This document shows positions 1,121-15,329 of a stretch of 32,931 nucleotides of DNA, one piece after another. The notes below the pieces were generated by a model. That model was not told where the DNA came from, searched no databases, and was given only the letters and a program-made list of their open reading frames with translations. Position numbers and translations under genes: made by a program. The DNA comes from Isoptericola sp. (GTDB lineage: Bacteria > Actinomycetota > Actinomycetes > Actinomycetales > Cellulomonadaceae). Each line of letters starts with the position of its first letter. The stretch's first letter is position 1. The stretch lies in NCBI GenBank assembly GCA_031181105.1, contig JAPSLD010000009.1, positions 1-32,931 of the forward strand, in the 5' to 3' direction.

Positions 1121-1165
1121 TGTCAGCGGGCGCGGTGTCAGCGGGCGCGGTGTCAGCGGGCGCGG
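1121..1165. repeat. 15-bp tandem repeat x3 across the bioY stop codon
   Basis: Three exact copies of TGTCAGCGGGCGCGG (1121-1135, 1136-1150, 1151-1165). The third copy contains the bioY stop (TGA on the minus strand, 1155-1153). Because 15 is a multiple of three, each further copy supplies another in-frame TGA in the bioY 3' region. Confidence 0.9.
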
Positions 1166-1749
1166 CGCCAGACGGCCGGCAGCAGGGCGCCGGCGAGCGC
1201 GGCCTTGACCGCGTCGCCGGGCAGGAAGACGACGGCTCCGGCCGTCAGCGCCGCGCCGAGCGGCATGCCGGCGACGGCGGCGAGCCACGGCACGCCGACG
1301 GCGTAGACCACCGCGGTGCCCGCGGCGTACGCGGCGACGGTCGACAGCACGCGCCGGTCGGCCCCGCGCCGGGCGAGCGCGCCGACGACCGCGGACGCCG
1401 CCACGAACCCGAGCAGGTACCCGCCGCTCGCGCCGGCCACGACGTCCCACCCGGACGCGCCGCCCGTGAAGACCGGAAGGCCCACGAGCCCGGCGCCGAC
1501 GTACAGCACCTGGGCGAGCGAGCCGCGCAGCGGGCCGAGCGCGGCGGCGCCGAGGAGCACGGCGAACGTCTGGCCCGTGACGGGCACGGGGAGGCCGGGG
1601 ACCGGGATGCGGAGCTGGGCGGCGAGCGCGGTGAGCGCCGCGACGCCCACGACCAGCGCGACGTCGCGCGCCACGCTCCGTGGGAGCAGGTCGGCCAGGA
1701 CGCGGCGGGTGTGGGCGGCGGGCAGGGGCATCGCGGCGGCTGCGGTCAT
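1153..1749 (-). CDS. bioY: BioY biotin transporter substrate-binding subunit
   Basis: A 198-residue integral membrane protein of the BioY family, the S component that captures biotin for uptake, alone or with an ECF ATPase/transmembrane pair. Visible signs are about six hydrophobic helices, the family motif around VPGLPVPVTGQTFAVLLGAA, and GGASGWDVVAGASGGYLLGF in the middle. No bioM or bioN gene is adjacent, so it works alone or with ECF parts encoded elsewhere. The ATG at 1749 is preferred over the upstream in-frame start at 1833 because a TAGCGT -10 box lies 7 nt before it and the extra N-terminal stretch looks non-coding. MPLPAAH at 1731 is a second possible start. The 3' end carries a 15-bp tandem repeat that includes the stop codon. 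Confidence 0.93.
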   Translation of the reverse strand: MTAAAAMPLPAAHTRRVLADLLPRSVARDVALVVGVAALTALAAQLRIPVPGLPVPVTGQTFAVLLGAAALGPLRGSLAQVLYVGAGLVGLPVFTGGASGWDVVAGASGGYLLGFVAASAVVGALARRGADRRVLSTVAAYAAGTAVVYAVGVPWLAAVAGMPLGAALTAGAVVFLPGDAVKAALAGALLPAVWRRAR

Positions 1750-1756
1750 GGCCACG

Positions 1757-1834: not shown

Positions 1835-1890
1835 CCCGTGCGCGGGTGGGCGGCAACATCCGCCGGTTCCGTTGTGGGGATCGTGCACGC

Positions 1891-1970
1891 GCTACCTCGC
1901 GGCGCGGCGCGCTACCTCGGCGTGGGACGCGCTACCTCGGCGGGGAACGCGCTACCTCGCGGGTGGTCAG
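1891..1970. repeat. 20-bp tandem repeat x4 at the 3' end of the PAS-AraC gene
   Basis: Units start at 1891, 1911, 1931 and 1951 with an exact 20-bp period. Read in the sense of the AraC gene, each carries the invariant core GAGGTAGC followed by a GC-rich linker starting GCG. The last unit (1951-1970) contains the AraC stop codon (1969-1967). The same family recurs at 14961-15020. The rest of 1750-1966 holds the bioY -10 box and one palindrome but no gene. Confidence 0.92.
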
Positions 1971-2737
1971 ACGCGGCGGGCGCGGCGGCGGAAGGACGAC
2001 GGCGTCTCGCCGGTCAGGCGCGCGAACGTGCGCGTGAACGCGGCCTGGTCGTAGAACCCCGCGGCGGACGCGACCTCGGCGAGCGGCGTCCCGGTCGACG
2101 CGAGCAGGTGCGCGGCCCGGTCGACGCGGGCGCGCAGCACGAGCTGGCGCGGCGTCAGCCCGAACACGCGCCGCACCCGCCGGTCGAGGACCGCGGTCGT
2201 GCACCCGGCCATGCGCGCCAGGTCGGCCGCAGTCAGCGACACGTTCGGCGTGGCGTCGAGGTGGCGCTCGACCGCACCGACGAGGCGCGCCATCGCGTCC
2301 ATCGTCGCGTCGTCGGCGTCGTCCTCGCGCAGGTCCTGCGAGACCGACACGAGCCCGACGACGTCCCCGGCGTCGTCGTGCACCGGGAGCTTGGACGTGA
2401 GGAACCAGCCGGGCACGCCCCCGACGTGCCGGATGAGCTCGAGCTCGTTGCGCAGCGGGCGGCCGGTGCGCAGGACCTCGTCGTCCTGGGTCGTGTAGCG
2501 CTCGGCCAGCTCCGGGACGAACAGGTCGCCGGCGCGGCGGCCGACGACGTGGCGGCGGGAGCGCTCGTTGGTCCGGCGGACGAAGACCTGGTTCACGAGG
2601 ACGTAGCGACCGGTGGTGTCCTTGGCGCAGAACATCACGCCGCTCAGCTCGTCCATGAGCGCGACCATGGCAGGCGCCATCGCGGCCAGGAGGGCGTCCG
2701 CCTCGGGCCACGTCGTGTTGTGCGAAACTCCGCCCAT
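1967..2737 (-). CDS. PAS-domain AraC-family regulator, probable activator of putA
   Basis: A 256-residue cytosolic transcription factor. Residues about 20-130 form a PAS-like sensor (MDELSGVMFCAKDTTGRYVLVN ... PGWFLTSKLPVHDDAGDVVGLVSVSQDL). Residues about 165-255 form the AraC double helix-turn-helix (LTAADLARMAGCTTAVLDRRVRRVFGLTPRQLV and LAEVASAAGFYDQAAFTRTFARLTGETPSSFRRR). It is transcribed divergently from putA with only 53 bp between the start codons. Genes of this build are often found beside proline catabolic genes in actinobacteria, so control of putA in response to proline or redox state is the best inference. A TACGAT -10 box lies 10 nt before the ATG, so the leader would be only a few bases. 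The 3' end merges into a 20-bp tandem array. The family is certain; the ligand and target are inferred. Confidence 0.9.
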   Translation of the reverse strand: MGGVSHNTTWPEADALLAAMAPAMVALMDELSGVMFCAKDTTGRYVLVNQVFVRRTNERSRRHVVGRRAGDLFVPELAERYTTQDDEVLRTGRPLRNELELIRHVGGVPGWFLTSKLPVHDDAGDVVGLVSVSQDLREDDADDATMDAMARLVGAVERHLDATPNVSLTAADLARMAGCTTAVLDRRVRRVFGLTPRQLVLRARVDRAAHLLASTGTPLAEVASAAGFYDQAAFTRTFARLTGETPSSFRRRARRV

Positions 2738-5700: not shown

Positions 5701-6288
5701 GGCCCGGGCGCGAAGGCCGGCGGCCCCAACTACGTGGCACAGCTGGGCTCGTGGTCCGACGACGCGGTCGTGGTGCCGTCGCGCGGCAACGACCCCGACG
5801 GGTGGCTGAGGTTCGCCGAGGCGTCCGACGCGGCGGCGTGGGAGGCCGAGCTCGGCGTCGGGCACGACCGGACCGGGCTGCGCGTCGAGGAGAACACCTT
5901 CCGCTACCGCCCGGTCGAGCGGGTCACGGTGCGCGTCGGCGACGGAGCGCTGCCCGTCGAGGTGATGCGCGTGCTGGCCGCGGCGCGGCGCGCGGGCGTG
6001 CCGACCGTCGTCGTGCCGGTGTCCGACGCCGGGTGGGGCGTGCCGCACGAGGCGCCCGTCTCGCACGAGGACTTCGCCGCCGCCGTGGCCGAGGGTCGCG
6101 TCACGGGCCGGATCCGCGTGATCGGCGACGCGCCGGGCCTGCACGAGGCCGCGGCGAGGCGCCTCGGCACCGTGACGGTGCTCGACCGGCCGGTGCTCGC
6201 CTCCGGCCGGCGCGAGCTGCTGACGTTCCTGCGCGAGCAGGCCGTGAGCCGCACGCGGCACCGGTACGGGCACGTGCACCTCGCCTGA
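2791..6288 (+). CDS. putA: Bifunctional proline dehydrogenase / L-glutamate gamma-semialdehyde dehydrogenase
   Basis: A 1165-residue PutA that oxidises proline to glutamate in two steps: an FAD proline dehydrogenase, then an NAD-dependent aldehyde dehydrogenase with substrate channelling. The proline dehydrogenase barrel spans about residues 70-480, with LVKGANLAMEQVEAE, and YLVRRLEENAAEQNF near residue 425, which carries the substrate-binding RR-EN motif. The aldehyde dehydrogenase spans about 540-1010, with TPPWNFPVAIPIGG near 637, general-base region ETSGKNALVV with Glu750, and catalytic Cys784 in GQKCSAAS. About 155 residues follow, consistent with the C-terminal domain of long PutA proteins. 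There is no ribbon-helix-helix DNA-binding leader as in enterobacterial PutA, so repression must come from elsewhere; the divergent PAS-AraC gene is the obvious candidate. A strong hairpin and a 90-bp repeat follow the stop. Confidence 0.97.
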   Translation: MSTPVPAHHPAPPVSAESLVDDAVALARTWIDAAAGDGGAAPTTRADRRARATAERLGSLVSDPAGLELAVGFVDDVARPQDVRVAAKALSRLGADAGSASFLSPVDRALFKVGAAVAPTLPSVVVPAARVRLRQLVGHLVADAGAGLGKHLARTRAEGYTLNVNLLGEAVLGEDEARARLQRTIDLVRRPDVDYVSVKVSSVAAQLVTWDLEGSRERVVERLLPLYRAARDHGVFLNLDMEEYRDLALTTAVFRDVLDRDEFRGLEAGIVLQAYLPDALGALDELTEWAQGRVAAGGARIKVRLVKGANLAMEQVEAELHDWPQAPYTSKPEVDANYVRLLEHHLTPERTAAVRVGAASHNLFHVALAVLLARSRGVTEGLDIEMLQGMAPIEARLVRAEVAEDGGRVVLYTPVVRDEDFDVAISYLVRRLEENAAEQNFLHAAFAPAGGGGTESGAVPPMDRQEAAFRASVTHGVHFTPDDVAPRRRPRFGARQPWEDAPEFRNAVDTDPAVAAHREWAKRVTGPESGFVPVRTPETTSVEEIDAAVARAVAVRETWAAVAPADRATVLRAAARHLEAARTDLVAAAVHEPGKTVAEADPEVSEAVDFANYYAASAEALERVDGATFAPEGVTLVTPPWNFPVAIPIGGVLASLAAGSPVLAKPAPPTPRCFELAVDAVHAALDEVAPEIGLDPEVARDVLQLLRVPDGALGQHLVTHADVSRVILTGSIETAELFASWRPERPVLAETSGKNALVVTPSADLDLAVADVVRSAFGHAGQKCSAASLVILVGSVGDPTTVTGERFRRQLVDAVRSLAVGPATSLSTVMGPLTEPAQGKLLRALTSLEPGESWLVEPRRLDEVAAEHGIDPDRLWTPGLRDGVAPGSFFHLTEVFGPVLGIMRAADLDEALRLQNQVSFGLTAGLHSLDSDEIATWLDRVEAGNVYVNRHITGAIVQRQSFGGWKASVVGPGAKAGGPNYVAQLGSWSDDAVVVPSRGNDPDGWLRFAEASDAAAWEAELGVGHDRTGLRVEENTFRYRPVERVTVRVGDGALPVEVMRVLAAARRAGVPTVVVPVSDAGWGVPHEAPVSHEDFAAAVAEGRVTGRIRVIGDAPGLHEAAARRLGTVTVLDRPVLASGRRELLTFLREQAVSRTRHRYGHVHLA

Positions 6289-6300
6289 GCCCGGCGCTGC

Positions 6301-6334
6301 GGCTCGGGCGGCGGTGCTTGATGCCGCCCGAGCC
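6301..6334 (+). terminator. putA terminator hairpin
   Basis: A perfect 12-bp inverted repeat (GGCTCGGGCGGC, 10-nt loop, GCCGCCCGAGCC) starts 12 bases past the putA stop. The right arm belongs to the first 90-bp repeat unit, and a near-identical hairpin with one mismatch forms at the junction of the two units. The position between converging genes suggests it serves both strands. Confidence 0.7.
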
Positions 6335-6490
6335 TGCGGCTCCGCTGCGGGCGAGTGCCACGTTCCTCGGCCCTCACCCTGCGCTGCGCCTGCGGCTCAG
6401 GCGGTGCTTGATGCCGCCCGAGCCTGCGGCTCCGCTGCGGGCGAGTGCCTCGTTCCTCGGCCCTCACCCTGCGCTGCGCCTGCGGCTCAG
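6311..6490. repeat. 90-bp direct repeat x2 between putA and cebR
   Basis: Units 6311-6400 and 6401-6490 are identical except at 6360/6450 (A versus T). Each contains several small palindromes, such as GAGCC-TGC-GGCTC and GCCTG-CGGCT-CAGGC, giving a REP-like texture. The second unit includes the cebR stop codon (6489-6487), and the first repeats that TGA in the same frame. Part of the unit (TGAGCCGC then AGCGCAGGGTG) recurs after the kinase gene at 28004, which suggests a dispersed family. No gene lies in 6289-6486. Confidence 0.92.
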
Positions 6491-7500
6491 GCAGTCTCGC
6501 CCTCGACGAGGCGCGGCGCGAGGATCCGTGGCTCGCCGGGCACGGGGGTGCCGGCGAGCAGGTCGAGGAGCGTCGACGTCGCCGCGGACACCATCTGCAC
6601 GAGCGGCTGCTCGACCGTCGTGAGCCGCGGCGTGGTGCGGTCCGCGGCGCCGAGGGCGTCGAACCCGACGACCTTGACGTCGTCGGGCACGGAGCGGCCC
6701 CGCGCGCGCAGGACCTCCAGCGCGCCCGTGGCCATGAGGTCCGACGCCGCGAACAGCCCGTCCACGTCCGGGTGCTCGTCGAGGATCTGCTCCATCGCCG
6801 CGGCACCACCGGCGACGGTGAAGTCGCCGTGCGCCACGACCTCGGCCGGCAGGCCCGCCTCGGCGAGCTCGCCGCGCCATCCCTCGAGGCGGTCGAGCGT
6901 CGCGGTCATGTCGAGCGGCCCCGTGATCGTCGCGATGCGGCGGCAGCCACGCTCCACGAGCCGGTGCGTCGCCGTCCGGCCGCCACCGACGTTGTCGACG
7001 TCGACGTAGTGCAGGCCCTCGGGGCTGAAGGGCCGCCCGACGAACACGGCGGGCAGGTTCGAGCGGGACAGCTCCGGCTCGAGCCGGTCGTCGCGGTGGT
7101 GCGAGGCCACGATCGCGCCGTCGACGTGGCCGCTGCGCAGGTACCGCGCGATGTGGCCCGGCCGCTCGTCGGGGCGCGACAGCAGCAGCACCAGCTGCAG
7201 CTCCGTGCCGGTCAGCCCCTCGCTGACGCCGCGCAGCACGCCGGCCAGGAACGGGTCGGTCAGGATGCGCGCGTCGGGCTCGGGCACCACGAGCGCGATC
7301 GAGTCCGTGCGCCGGGTGACGAGCGAGCGCGCCGCCCGGTTCGGGGAGTACCCGAGCCGGGCGACGGCGTCGTCGACAGCGGCCTGCGCCTCGGGCGAGA
7401 CCCGCTCGCCGCCGTTGATCGCGCGCGACGCGGTGGACCGGGACACGCCCGCGGCGCGGGCGACGTCGTCGAGTGTCGGGGCGCCGTGCACGGTGGTCAC
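6487..7500 (-). CDS. cebR: LacI-family repressor, CebR/CelR type
   Basis: A 337-residue LacI/GalR repressor. The N-terminal helix-turn-helix is clear (LDDVARAAGVSRSTASRAINGGERVS, residues about 10-35), with the minor-groove hinge motif YSPNRAARSLVTRRT following. The rest is a periplasmic-binding-like effector domain (DSIALVVPEPDARILTDPF ... VDGLFAASDLMATGALEVL). The GTG at 7500 gives the standard family length; the frame continues upstream to 7749, but that part overlaps bglC. It is the last gene of the cello-oligosaccharide cluster, 10 bp after bglC. CebR and CelR, in Streptomyces and Thermobifida, bind TGGGAGCGCTCCCA and are released by cellobiose. That exact box lies in front of the binding-protein gene here, so orthologous function is a strong inference. 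Its 3' end lies in a 90-bp repeat. Confidence 0.92.
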   Translation of the reverse strand: MTTVHGAPTLDDVARAAGVSRSTASRAINGGERVSPEAQAAVDDAVARLGYSPNRAARSLVTRRTDSIALVVPEPDARILTDPFLAGVLRGVSEGLTGTELQLVLLLSRPDERPGHIARYLRSGHVDGAIVASHHRDDRLEPELSRSNLPAVFVGRPFSPEGLHYVDVDNVGGGRTATHRLVERGCRRIATITGPLDMTATLDRLEGWRGELAEAGLPAEVVAHGDFTVAGGAAAMEQILDEHPDVDGLFAASDLMATGALEVLRARGRSVPDDVKVVGFDALGAADRTTPRLTTVEQPLVQMVSAATSTLLDLLAGTPVPGEPRILAPRLVEGETA

Positions 7501-13481: not shown

Positions 13482-14972
13482 GTGTCCGCCATGAGTGACC
13501 TGATCGCCAAGCACGCCGACCTGTCGGCCTCCGACGTCGAGTGGCTGCACCTGCTCGTCGGCGACTGGCAGGTCGTCTCGGACCTGGCGTTCGCCGACCT
13601 GGTGCTGTGGCTGCCGACGGCCGACGGTGCGTTCGTCGCCATCGCCCAGTGCCGGCCGAGCACCGGCGCGACGGTGCACTACGACGACATCGTCGGCTCG
13701 CCCGCGCCCGAGGGCCAGCGTCCCCAGCTCGCGGCCGCGCTGGCCGAGGTCCGCTCGCAGCGGTCGCGCGAGCCCCGGTGGTTCGGCGCGTACGCCGTGC
13801 GCGAGGAGGCCGTCCCGGTCGTGCACGAGGGCCGCCCGATCGCCGTCGTCGCGCGCCAGACGAACCTCGGCTCCGGGCGCACCCCGAGCCGGCTCGAGCT
13901 CAACTACGTCGAGGCGGCCGACGACCTGCTCGCGATGATCGCGCGCGGCGAGTACCCGGCTCCCAACGCGGCGACCGGGCCGCGGCGGGGCGCCCCGCGC
14001 GTCGGCGACGGGCTCATCCGCCTCAACTCCGAGGGCGAGGTGCTCTACGCGAGCCCCAACGCGCTGTCCTGCTTCCACCGGCTCGGCGTGATCGGGCCGC
14101 TCGTCGGCCAGTCCCTGGTCGAGGTCACGGCCGACCTCGTGGAGCACCAGAGCACCGTGGACGAGTCGCTGCCGCTCGTGGTCATGGGCCGCGCACCCTG
14201 GCGGACGGACATCGAGGCGGCCGGCGTCGCGCTGTCGCTGCGCGCGCTGCCGCTGACGGACCACGGCCAGCGCATCGGTGCCGTGCTGCTGTGCCGCGAC
14301 GTGTCCGAGCTGCGCCGGCGCGAGCGCGAGCTGATGACCAAGGACGCCACGATCCGCGAGATCCACCACCGCGTGAAGAACAACCTCGCGACCGTCGCGG
14401 CGCTGCTGCGGCTGCAGGCCCGGCGCATGGACGTGCCGGAGGCCCGCGCCGCGCTCGAGGAGGCGATGCGCCGCGTGGCCACGATCTCGCTCGTGCACGA
14501 GTCGTTGTCCCAGACGCTCGAGGAGCAGGTCGAGCTGGACGACATGCTGCGCCGCGCCCTGCGGCTCGCGGCCGACGTCGCCTCGACGGCGACGCGGGTG
14601 CGCACCCAGCAGACCGGGTCGTTCGGGCTGGTGCCCGCGCAGGACGCGACCCCGCTCGCGCTCGTGCTCACCGAGCTGGTGACCAACGCCGTCGAGCACG
14701 CCTTCCCCGAACGGGAGGCCGGGGTCGTGGCGATCGACGTGCAGCGCGAGGGGTCCTCCCTGCGGGTGGTCGTGTCCGACGACGGCGTGGGGATGGCCGA
14801 CGGCATCGACGTCCTCGGGCGCGCGTCGCGCAGCGGCCTCGGGTCGCAGATCGTCCAGACGCTCGTCACGAACGAGCTCGGCGGGACCATCCGCTGGGAG
14901 CCGCGCGAGGGCGGCGGTACGCAGGTCGTGCTCGAGGCCGAGCTGCGCGACGGCGCCGCGTCGTCGAGGTAG
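13482..14972 (+). CDS. pdtaS: PdtaS-like cytosolic sensor histidine kinase
   Basis: A 496-residue soluble histidine kinase. A GAF-like N-terminal domain (about 1-155) is followed by a PAS-like domain (about 170-285, LIRLNSEGEVLYASPNALSCFHRLGVIG). Then comes a HisKA_2 dimerisation box with EIHHRVKNNLATVAALLRLQARR, where His295 or His296 is the phosphoacceptor. The HATPase domain has LTELVTNAVEHAF, VSDDGVGM and SGLGSQIVQTLV. There are no membrane helices. In Mycobacterium, PdtaS signals to the antiterminator PdtaR and lies beside whiB1 (Rv3220c and Rv3219). The same convergent pdtaS/whiB1 arrangement is present here, which supports orthology; no PdtaR gene is in the window. The GTG start is supported by the leaderless promoter. 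The TAG stop is the first of three copies in a 20-bp tandem repeat. Confidence 0.92.
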   Translation: MSAMSDLIAKHADLSASDVEWLHLLVGDWQVVSDLAFADLVLWLPTADGAFVAIAQCRPSTGATVHYDDIVGSPAPEGQRPQLAAALAEVRSQRSREPRWFGAYAVREEAVPVVHEGRPIAVVARQTNLGSGRTPSRLELNYVEAADDLLAMIARGEYPAPNAATGPRRGAPRVGDGLIRLNSEGEVLYASPNALSCFHRLGVIGPLVGQSLVEVTADLVEHQSTVDESLPLVVMGRAPWRTDIEAAGVALSLRALPLTDHGQRIGAVLLCRDVSELRRRERELMTKDATIREIHHRVKNNLATVAALLRLQARRMDVPEARAALEEAMRRVATISLVHESLSQTLEEQVELDDMLRRALRLAADVASTATRVRTQQTGSFGLVPAQDATPLALVLTELVTNAVEHAFPEREAGVVAIDVQREGSSLRVVVSDDGVGMADGIDVLGRASRSGLGSQIVQTLVTNELGGTIRWEPREGGGTQVVLEAELRDGAASSR

Positions 14973-15020
14973 CGCGCGCCCCGCCGAGGTAGCGCGCGTC
15001 CCGCCGAGGTAGCGCCGGGA
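14961..15020. repeat. 20-bp tandem repeat x3 containing the pdtaS stop codon
   Basis: Units 14961-14980, 14981-15000 and 15001-15020, consensus CCGCCGAGGTAGCGCGCGTC. The TAG inside the first copy is the pdtaS stop. Since 20 is not a multiple of three, the three TAGs fall in three different frames. The core GAGGTAGC and the 20-bp period match the array at 1891-1970, in the same orientation relative to the upstream gene. Confidence 0.92.
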
Positions 15021-15025
15021 CGCGA

Positions 15026-15063
15026 GAACGCCCCGCCCGCTCCGAGGAGCGGACGGGGCGTTC
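15026..15063. terminator. Bidirectional terminator between pdtaS and whiB1
   Basis: An 18-bp stem with one mismatch (15026-15043 with 15046-15063, outer arms GAACGCCCCG and CGGGGCGTTC) lies between the two converging genes, 17 bp from the whiB1 stop. Confidence 0.85.
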
Positions 15064-15080
15064 CTCCGTCTCTGCCTGCG

Positions 15081-15329
15081 TCAGCCGGCGCGGCGGGCGC
15101 GCGCGGTGCGCCGCTTGAGCGCGCGGCGCTCGTCCTCGCTCATGCCGCCCCACACACCGGCGTCCTGGCCGGACTCGATGGCCCACTTCAGGCACGTGTC
15201 GACCACCTCGCAACGGCGGCACACCGCCTTGGCCTCCTCGATCTGCAGCAGGGCGGGGCCGGTGTTGCCGATCGGGAAGAAGAGTTCCGGGTCCTCATCG
15301 AGGCAGGCGGCCTTGTGGCGCCAGTCCAT
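15081..15329 (-). CDS. whiB1: WhiB1-type iron-sulfur transcription factor
   Basis: An 82-residue Wbl protein. The four cluster-binding cysteines are visible at 9, 37, 40 and 46 (AACLDEDPELFFP ... AVCRRCEVVDTCLKWA) and would hold a nitric-oxide-sensitive [4Fe-4S] cluster. The GVWGGMSEDERRALKRR segment is the turn and basic tail used to contact sigma factor and DNA. Length and the DWRHKAACLDEDPELFFPIGNTGPA leader match the WhiB1/WblE group rather than WhiB2 or WhiB3. The ATG at 15329 has GAGGAGAC just upstream. It converges on the PdtaS-like kinase gene as in Mycobacterium, where WhiB1 is essential. The upstream 226 bp (15330-15555) hold a long leader and an inverted repeat, but no convincing promoter for this gene was found. 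Confidence 0.95.
   Translation of the reverse strand: MDWRHKAACLDEDPELFFPIGNTGPALLQIEEAKAVCRRCEVVDTCLKWAIESGQDAGVWGGMSEDERRALKRRTARARRAG

Follow-up and report, generated by a model that had tools for sequence, protein, structure and literature searches.

Phased tandem arrays at gene ends in Isoptericola, candidate sites of gene-end punctuation

Introduction

Two regulatory genes lying 13 kb apart on one contig of an Isoptericola draft genome end beside the same short tandem repeat, which raises the question of whether such arrays are accidents of replication or members of a functional family. The window analyzed here is the whole stretch of 32,931 nucleotides from that contig. An earlier note on this DNA described four 20-bp units with an invariant core at the end of a PAS and AraC-type regulator gene, saw the element recur at pdtaS, and held chance slippage to be an incomplete explanation. 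It also pointed to helical phasing and to TAG in all three frames as possible grounds for the constraint. The repeat is followed here through its own genome, the genus and more distant relatives. A functional family is likely, as the arrays occur genome-wide and are gathered at gene ends.

Genomes and Sampling

Most counts come from two genomes. G000 is the window's own Isoptericola draft genome (2.75 Mb, 74% complete), and G001 is a genus mate in a single contig, recorded as 100% complete. G001 was sampled systematically in 60 evenly spaced 20-kb stretches covering 1.2 Mb (36% of the genome), in which 48 arrays were found at 29 loci; stretches of G000, chosen for holding arrays, contributed 35. 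One G001 array with 19-bp spacing and a core mismatch (L086) was excluded from the placement statistics, leaving 47. For the count of gap types, two G001 arrays at stretch ends were unassigned and one lies in a coding sequence, leaving 45 assigned. Genes in the samples were predicted with a home-made caller trained on codon-position GC; gene starts are therefore individually unreliable, and the counts rest on stop codons. Constraint on the core was measured with half-word anchors, by finding one half together with a neighbor at 20 bp and reading the other half. Comparing orthologous gene ends between G000 and the sampled part of G001 gave 62 matches, 60 of them far enough from stretch ends, with ends that share one gap counted separately.

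The Two Arrays of the Window

Table 1. Coordinates of the two arrays and the features beside them in the window.
Feature	Position	Strand	Details
Array 1, four CGAGGTAGCGC cores, exact 20-bp period	1889..1959 (1949-1959, 1929-1939, 1909-1919, 1889-1899)	-	7 nt 3' of the TGA of the AraC-type gene
Array 2, three CGAGGTAGCGC cores, exact 20-bp period	14965..15015 (14965-14975, 14985-14995, 15005-15015)	+	pdtaS stops at the TAG of copy 1
PAS and AraC-type regulator gene ahead of array 1	1967..2737, stop TGA 1967-1969	-	Pfam PAS_4, HTH_18, HTH_AraC
pdtaS-type histidine kinase gene, end marked by array 2	13482..14972, stop TAG 14970-14972	+	Pfam GAF_PdtaS, HisKA_2, HATPase_c
Separate intrinsic-terminator-like hairpin 3' of array 2, ahead of the convergent WhiB gene	15026..15063	+	RNA fold 15018-15072: -42.1 kcal/mol, z -5.64
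WhiB-type gene, convergent, past array 2	15081..15329	-	Pfam Whib
bioY gene downstream of array 1, tandem gap	1153..1755	-	Pfam BioY

The 20-bp period reported earlier is exact behind both genes (Table 1). The 8-nt word GAGGTAGC occurs on the minus strand at 1891-1898, 1911-1918, 1931-1938 and 1951-1958, and on the plus strand at 14966-14973, 14986-14993 and 15006-15013. All seven matches in the window fall within the two arrays, confirming the recurrence at pdtaS in gene-sense orientation, and none of 100 dinucleotide shuffles reached seven (mean 0.42). The invariant core is real, but it had been described too short: the full repeated word is the 11-nt CGAGGTAGCGC, not an 8-mer. That the array takes in the stop codon holds at pdtaS, where the TAG of the first copy ends the gene. 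At the AraC-type gene it does not, for the TGA lies inside the interval first noted (1891-1970) and outside the repeat array proper.

As RNA, array 1 (1880-1975) is no more stable than its shuffles (z 0.65), and array 2 (14955-15020) likewise scores z 0.12. No Rfam match reached the gathering score in the window. Since a strong separate hairpin stands directly behind the pdtaS array, the array cannot be the sole terminator there. The convergent WhiB-type gene ends without an own-strand copy of the core after it. A phage or plasmid origin was rejected: viral contigs gave no exact match to the core, and plasmids none to the region of the AraC array.

Other tandem repeats are present in the window. 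Two 90-bp units, 98% alike, occupy 6310-6492 between genes ending at 6288 and 6487. An exact 15-bp repeat, CGGTGTCAGCGGGCG, is found in 3.2 copies at 1118-1165, between the aldo/keto reductase gene and bioY and running into the bioY end.

Unit Anatomy and Abundance

In the G001 sample the repeat unit consists of CGANGTAGCGC and a variable 9-nt linker, the fourth base being free. Units anchored on GTAGCGC (n = 200) had CGA at positions 1-3 in every case, while position 4 was G in 147, A in 35, C in 17 and T in 1; units anchored on CGANGTA (n = 212) had G, C, G and C at positions 8-11 in 209, 211, 209 and 205. Half-word anchoring in G000 found positions 1-3 held in 142, 145 and 144 of 145 units and positions 8-11 in 139-142 of 142. 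Non-exact units lying between exact copies were changed at position 4 alone in 15 of 15 cases in G001; four non-exact units were seen in G000, two changed at position 4 and two at position 1. The G001 sample further contains 11-mers with one substitution, such as 62 that have C at position 7, in a count that did not require an array. Linker columns carry far less information than the core, except in their last bases.

These counts tell against TAG in three frames as the reason for the constraint, since ten of the eleven positions are held and not TAG alone, and since the CGAGTCAGC dialect described below has no TAG in that reading. Three copies place TAG in all three frames because 20 equals 2 modulo 3, which is arithmetic. 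Helical phasing, with 20 bp in some dialects and 21 in others, would fit better than three-frame stops.

Successive GAGGTAGC words up to 45 bp apart in the G001 sample were spaced by 20 bp in 96 instances, by 21 in 3, by 19 in 1, by 40 in 10, and by 41 and 42 in 1 each; the G000 stretches gave 106 spacings of 20 bp and 1 of 21. Fixed spacing near whole helical turns and an invariant core are the marks of iteron-like arrays, and both are found here. About 60 permuted 8-mers produced no pair at +20 bp in the same G001 sample, against 96 for the core, and cores are held while linkers are not, so the doubt cast earlier on chance slippage was justified. Linkers of the same array are often alike, from which it appears that arrays grow by local duplication. 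Isolated exact 11-mers amount to 18 of 167 in the 1.2 Mb sample.

Across whole genomes, G000 holds 181 pairs of GAGGTAGC at exactly 20 bp (reversed control, 0), G001 284, G015 115, G014 24, G007 13, G011 2, and G004 and G017 1 each. The ten remaining genus mates have none, and neither does any of 40 genomes outside the genus. A GTAGCGC word pair at 20 bp was seen twice in G078, from another genus; one gap of this genome (L232, 11760-12000) has copies of CGAGGTAGCGC beside a second word, CGAGGTCGCAC. When intergenic 8-mer repeats were counted without reference to the core, the peak fell on exactly 20 bp in four samples, those of G001, G000 (runs of N subtracted), G016 and G009, and a weak one lay at 20-21 bp in G017. 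No 20-bp peak appeared in G010, G002, G003, G008 or G012, whose small samples gave isolated peaks at other periods; small samples can miss arrays, as G010 and G012 carry them elsewhere.

Placement at Gene Ends

The arrays lie between genes and behind stop codons. Intergenic sequence holds 47 of the 48 G001 arrays, and none of the 188 divergent gaps in the sample has one. Among gaps of 40-600 bp, arrays occupy 27 of 399 convergent and tandem gaps versus 0 of 170 divergent gaps (p 1e-4). A same-strand stop codon lies within -27 to 100 nt of 33 of the 47 arrays, compared with 5.8% expected for random placement in the genome and 19.8% for random intergenic placement. Clustering in sense orientation within 100 bp after stops, the check proposed earlier, is thereby borne out (p ~1e-30 and 1e-13 for the two placements, respectively). 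The opposite orientation gave 17 of 47 and either orientation 41 of 47. Nor is the repeat limited to two places, randomly oriented or as common inside genes, the outcomes that the earlier note had named as telling against a family; 1 of 48 arrays lies in a gene, dnaX.

Sense orientation is the rule but not a strict one. All 22 convergent-gap arrays of G001 are sense to the gene that they follow, and tandem gaps hold 11 sense arrays and 12 that are not. These 12 of the 45 gap-assigned arrays do not follow a same-strand stop; all are in tandem gaps, and 8 form the far arm of a convergent inverted pair. Partnerless antisense arrays number 3 once L086 is dropped. In G000, 28 of 35 arrays follow a stop in sense orientation, and for 15 of these the stop is the TAG of copy 1. 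By gap, the G000 arrays divide into 20 convergent, 12 tandem, 2 at contig edges and 1 called divergent (L164).

Many arrays abut or contain the stop codon. The TAG of copy 1 serves as the stop in 13 sense arrays of G001 and that of copy 2 in 3, while 6 arrays begin directly after the stop. A TAG of the array is thus the stop of the gene in 16 of 33 sense cases, whereas of all 1092 genes 135 end in TAG (p 2e-7). Other hairpins occur in 4 of 12 convergent and 0 of 15 tandem gaps with arrays, against 34 of 68 and 62 of 304 gaps without them (stratified p 0.036); their lower number in array gaps, which would amount to substitution, is only nominally significant.

Along the G001 chromosome, the 12 stretches farthest from dnaA hold 2 array loci and the remaining 48 hold 27 (Spearman -0.28, p 0.03; Poisson p 0.07). 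Replichore polarity of the KOPS/Chi-like kind was rejected, as sense arrays are divided into 15 leading and 18 lagging compared with 715 and 425 for all genes, and the 151 forward and 133 reverse pairs of G001 also contradict it.

The sole intragenic array of the sample is found in the dnaX linker of G001 (L108, 14963-15117; gene identified by NCBIfam DnaX) and has 8 copies at 21-bp spacing. It is in frame and encodes a seven-residue repeat of the AEVARxD type. The codon GTA, which makes up 0.38% of Val codons, appears in the 7 copies listed; it could alternatively come from recent insertion. On contig 27 of G014 (38684-38796), 21-bp copies of another dialect lie 219 nt past the dnaX match, versus 240 nt in G001.

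Mirror Pairs and Folding

Arrays are commonly paired head to head. A convergent inverted partner lies within 1.5 kb of 36 of 47 G001 arrays and a divergent partner of none, while simulated random intergenic placement gave a mean of 2.8 for each. In G000, 24 of 35 arrays are paired convergently and 0 divergently. Among the places listed for G015, one pair stands back to back (contig 139). The inner gap between 11-mers measures 6-8 nt in 6 of 19 inverted pairs of G001. Inner copies overlap as a perfect palindrome once in G001 (20 bp) and in 6 of 15 pairs in G000 (five of 20 bp, one of 18).

Hairpins were sought at three levels. Whole-unit hairpins were rejected in G001, where the linkers of the two arms are no more complementary than by chance (0.438 versus 0.420, p 0.14); the free position 4 shows no covariation between arms (p 0.17). 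Hairpins within the unit were rejected as well, because the minimum free energy of 122 distinct units is no better than with redealt linker halves (p 0.17); one tested column pair within units reached z 3.0, and 46 folded arrays had a mean z of -0.29. Extension of an inner stem was rejected as a general rule: among pairs with a gap of at least 20, 1 of 10 in G001 and 1 of 9 in G000 reached 6 bp. These two stems are at orthologous loci. One locus keeps a 17-bp inner stem whose sequence differs between G000 and G001. Matching arms, linkers included, are frequent in the CGAGATAGA dialect (21 bp) and in G014, with sequences that differ between species. The 17-bp stem and these matching arms would speak for a hairpin at those sites.

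Conservation Between Relatives

Places are partly conserved. Among the 60 orthologous gene ends, arrays stand at 9 in both species, at 5 and 3 in one of them, and at 43 in neither (p 2e-5). Counted by locus, about 6 arrays are common to G000 and G001, and 3 and 2 are not. Shared arrays keep their cores save for occasional degenerate copies while copy numbers vary, and the adjoining genes are 80-96% identical. Linkers at 9 comparable orthologous arrays are 0.43 identical versus 0.41 for non-orthologous arrays (p 0.34), and best-matching linkers give 0.54 versus 0.53 (p 0.40). The strongest reason to think that the core itself is recognized is this persistence of cores beside changing linkers. 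Between paired arms, and between orthologous arrays, linkers resemble each other no more than linkers from unrelated loci do, so the arrays do not look like copies of one another.

At individual genes the record is patchy. The AraC array has 4 copies in G000, 2 in G001 and none in G015 or G014. At the pdtaS end, compared in 18 species, tandem CGAGGTAGCGC is found in G000 and G015, a single CGAGGTAG forms the stop in G001 and G005, and tandem copies with inverted arms surround a terminator in G014 (CGAGGTAGAA) and G010 (CGAGATAGAG); the other 12 species have no such word within 150 nt. The close relatives G002, G003, G008 and G013 are without this core, which implies that its function is dispensable or replaced there. 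Downstream of the AraC ortholog in G002, G017 and G016 (L127, L129 and L131), other palindromes built on CGAGGTCGTACC and CGAGATCGACC occur, and the core of the window is absent.

Dialects of the Core

Related words take the place of the core in other species. Pairs of CGAGRTAGNGC at 20 bp number 104 in G007, mostly CGAGGTAGTGC (T at N) among the matches listed, and fewer in G014, G011, G016, G004, G006 and G010; other genera gave 8 in G102 (control 1), 2 in G028 and 1 in G024. The word CGAGTCAGC forms 244 pairs at 20 bp in G012, 198 in G009, 2 in G002 and none in 15 others. Among the places listed in G009 and G012, close pairs of this dialect are often back to back (minus, then plus), the reverse of the CGANGTAGCGC layout. 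The word CGAGATAGA recurs at 20-21 bp, mostly 21 among the matches listed, with 20 pairs in G005, 11 in G006 and 23 in G010, and in other genera with 50 in G020, 54 in G066 and 3 in G028; G004 and G102, with 1 each, do not exceed the control. A few copies of CGAGGTAGAAC and others were found at 21 bp, and CGAGGTAG followed by AAC, TTC, TAC or GCA at 21 bp occurs a few times per genome, some possibly in coding sequence.

CGAGRTAGNGC had no match in 46 genomes from other families of the order, nor had CGAGATAGA in 45. A broad distribution of CGAGRTAG cores in the phylum was rejected in a survey of 217 genomes, which besides G000 included just 4 from the same order: G000 had 180 matches and 32 of the 216 others had 1-2, versus 18 with 1-2 control matches. 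A separate feature of G016 is a set of five TTTCACGTGAAA palindromes within about 3.6 kb (L185, 6052-9700), which resemble centromere-like parS sites.

Discussion

The reading preferred here, held tentatively and at somewhat less than even confidence, is that both window arrays are members of a genome-wide gene-end punctuation, in which phased sites for a putative lineage-specific trans-acting factor serve as insulators or terminators. It builds on what was observed: the sequence and its period, where the arrays lie and how they point, the constraint on the core, the dialects, and places that are conserved in part. Each array would be a row of putative recognition sites of 11 bp, which in this species group read CGANGTAGCGC. 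Their 20-bp step is about two turns of B-DNA, so that the sites would face the same side of the helix. A lineage-variable, sequence-specific factor would most likely bind each row cooperatively. The bound row would then stop RNA polymerase as it runs out of the gene, as a polar barrier or a terminator, and a convergent inverted pair would be a two-way insulator between neighbors.

Three parts of this proposal go beyond the counts. A trans-acting protein is the putative recognizer, given that a uniform 11-mer across the genome with free linkers needs a common reader. Action on DNA rather than on the transcript is favored by spacings of 20 or 21, both near two turns of B-DNA, whereas two turns of double-stranded RNA take about 22. 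Insulation or termination as the outcome would be favored by the position after stops, the scarcity in divergent gaps, the mirror pairing and the smaller number of other hairpins. Against the insulator or terminator reading count the 3 partnerless antisense arrays of G001, the 1 of 35 G000 arrays in a gap called divergent (L164), the back-to-back pair of G015 and the back-to-back CGAGTCAGC pairs, together with the pdtaS hairpin, the matching arms in other dialects, the inner stem and the missing cores in close relatives.

A bolder form of the proposal, which is somewhat unlikely as it stands, is that this would be a chromosomal punctuation system not previously described. Scores of gene ends per genome would carry phased arrays read by one fast-evolving DNA-binding factor, with lineage dialects (CGANGTAGCGC, CGAGGTAGTGC, CGAGTCAGC, CGAGATAGA and others) that keep phasing, gene-end position and mirror pairing. 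The arrays would serve as polar barriers to transcription in a genome very rich in GC. Literature text searches on the core strings and on tandem or interspersed gene-end repeats in actinobacteria found no description, which is not proof of absence. If the system is real, neighboring genes would be insulated by a dedicated site-specific factor, beyond hairpins or Rho alone. Site and reader would change together between sister species, so that the factor could be sought through a ready-made set of paired dialects, and GC-rich hosts would gain a small insulator part that works in both directions. Should the arrays turn out to be REP-like, they would still form an abundant class of repeats for which the text searches gave no description.

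Among other explanations, the one that deserves the most weight, although unlikely, is a family of REP/BIME-like repeats, which might be selfish or quasi-neutral. Spread or local expansion would account for the arrays, and purging from promoters and genes for their location after stops and their scarcity in divergent gaps. REPs are intergenic, likewise favor convergent and unidirectional gaps, form inverted clusters downstream of coding regions and sometimes enter replication genes (PMC3733652); the core also includes GTAG, and its presence is patchy among close relatives, as at the AraC array. Yet the unit is not palindromic, and the Y1-type transposase domain (PF01797; a search covering the Y1 family only) was absent from all 8 genus genomes, including G000 and G001, while its control was positive in 5 of 14 genomes; REPs mobilized by RAYT were rejected on these two grounds. 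Spread by copying is also hard to reconcile with arm and orthologous linkers that match no better than linkers of unrelated loci, and with cores that persist as linkers change. A transcript-level element, in which an RNA-binding protein on sense copies or hairpins from inverted copies end or protect the message, is distinctly less probable than an even guess and may be called doubtful. It would explain the strong sense bias after stops, the short inner gaps and palindromes of inverted pairs, and the often fully complementary arms, different in each species, of the CGAGATAGA dialect and G014. However, arm linkers and position 4 in G001 give no pairing signal, and neither the units, the 46 folded arrays nor the window arrays fold better than expected; free hairpins do not demand one 11-mer at every locus, and some arrays are antisense only.

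Sites of a topological or nucleoid system, of gyrase or nucleoid-occlusion type, placed where positive supercoils gather between converging genes, are improbable. The position between gene ends and the smaller number of loci far from dnaA in G001 suit them, but the dnaA trend is weak and such sites need not abut a stop codon. A DNA-uptake-sequence-like system with species dialects is very improbable. The uptake sequences (DUS) of Neisseriaceae have species dialects around a short common core and inverted pairs at gene ends (PMC3630211). The same source gives 1543-3770 copies per genome for some DUS, against 29 loci in 1.2 Mb here, and tandem phasing has no evident purpose in uptake; with very many dispersed single copies expected and 18 of 167 isolated, uptake sequences were rejected. 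Chance or plain replication slippage without function is hardly credible: the likeness of same-array linkers does indicate local duplication, but permuted words form no such pairs, and independent loci share a fixed unit length of 20 or 21 with cores held and linkers not.

Comparison With Known Systems

The arrays share features with several known systems. Plasmid iterons and other phased protein-binding direct repeats have invariant cores about two helical turns apart and variable spacers. The arrays have the same layout, but they stand at scores of chromosomal gene ends rather than at a replication origin, and their initiator-like reader is only putative. Bidirectional intrinsic terminators sit between convergent genes in inverted arrangement and are scarce in divergent gaps. 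The arrays agree with them in position, inverted layout and scarcity in divergent gaps; they differ in that the arms in G001 pair beyond chance through their cores only and in using the same 11-mer at every locus.

With GTAG-tagged REP/BIME elements (PMC3733652) the arrays have in common an extragenic place downstream of genes in convergent and tandem gaps (47 of 48 intergenic, 0 of 188 divergent gaps). They depart from them in a non-palindromic unit, head-to-tail phasing of 20 or 21 bp, free linkers, no Y1 transposase found and a first copy that is often the stop codon. Neisseriaceae DUS (PMC3630211) resemble the arrays as short words with a common core, species dialects and inverted pairs at gene ends; they are dispersed single words, whereas arrays at far fewer loci are found here. 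Although the defining REP and uptake features that were tested were not found, the arrays may work somewhat like BIMEs and bidirectional terminators, with dialects that recall uptake sequences.
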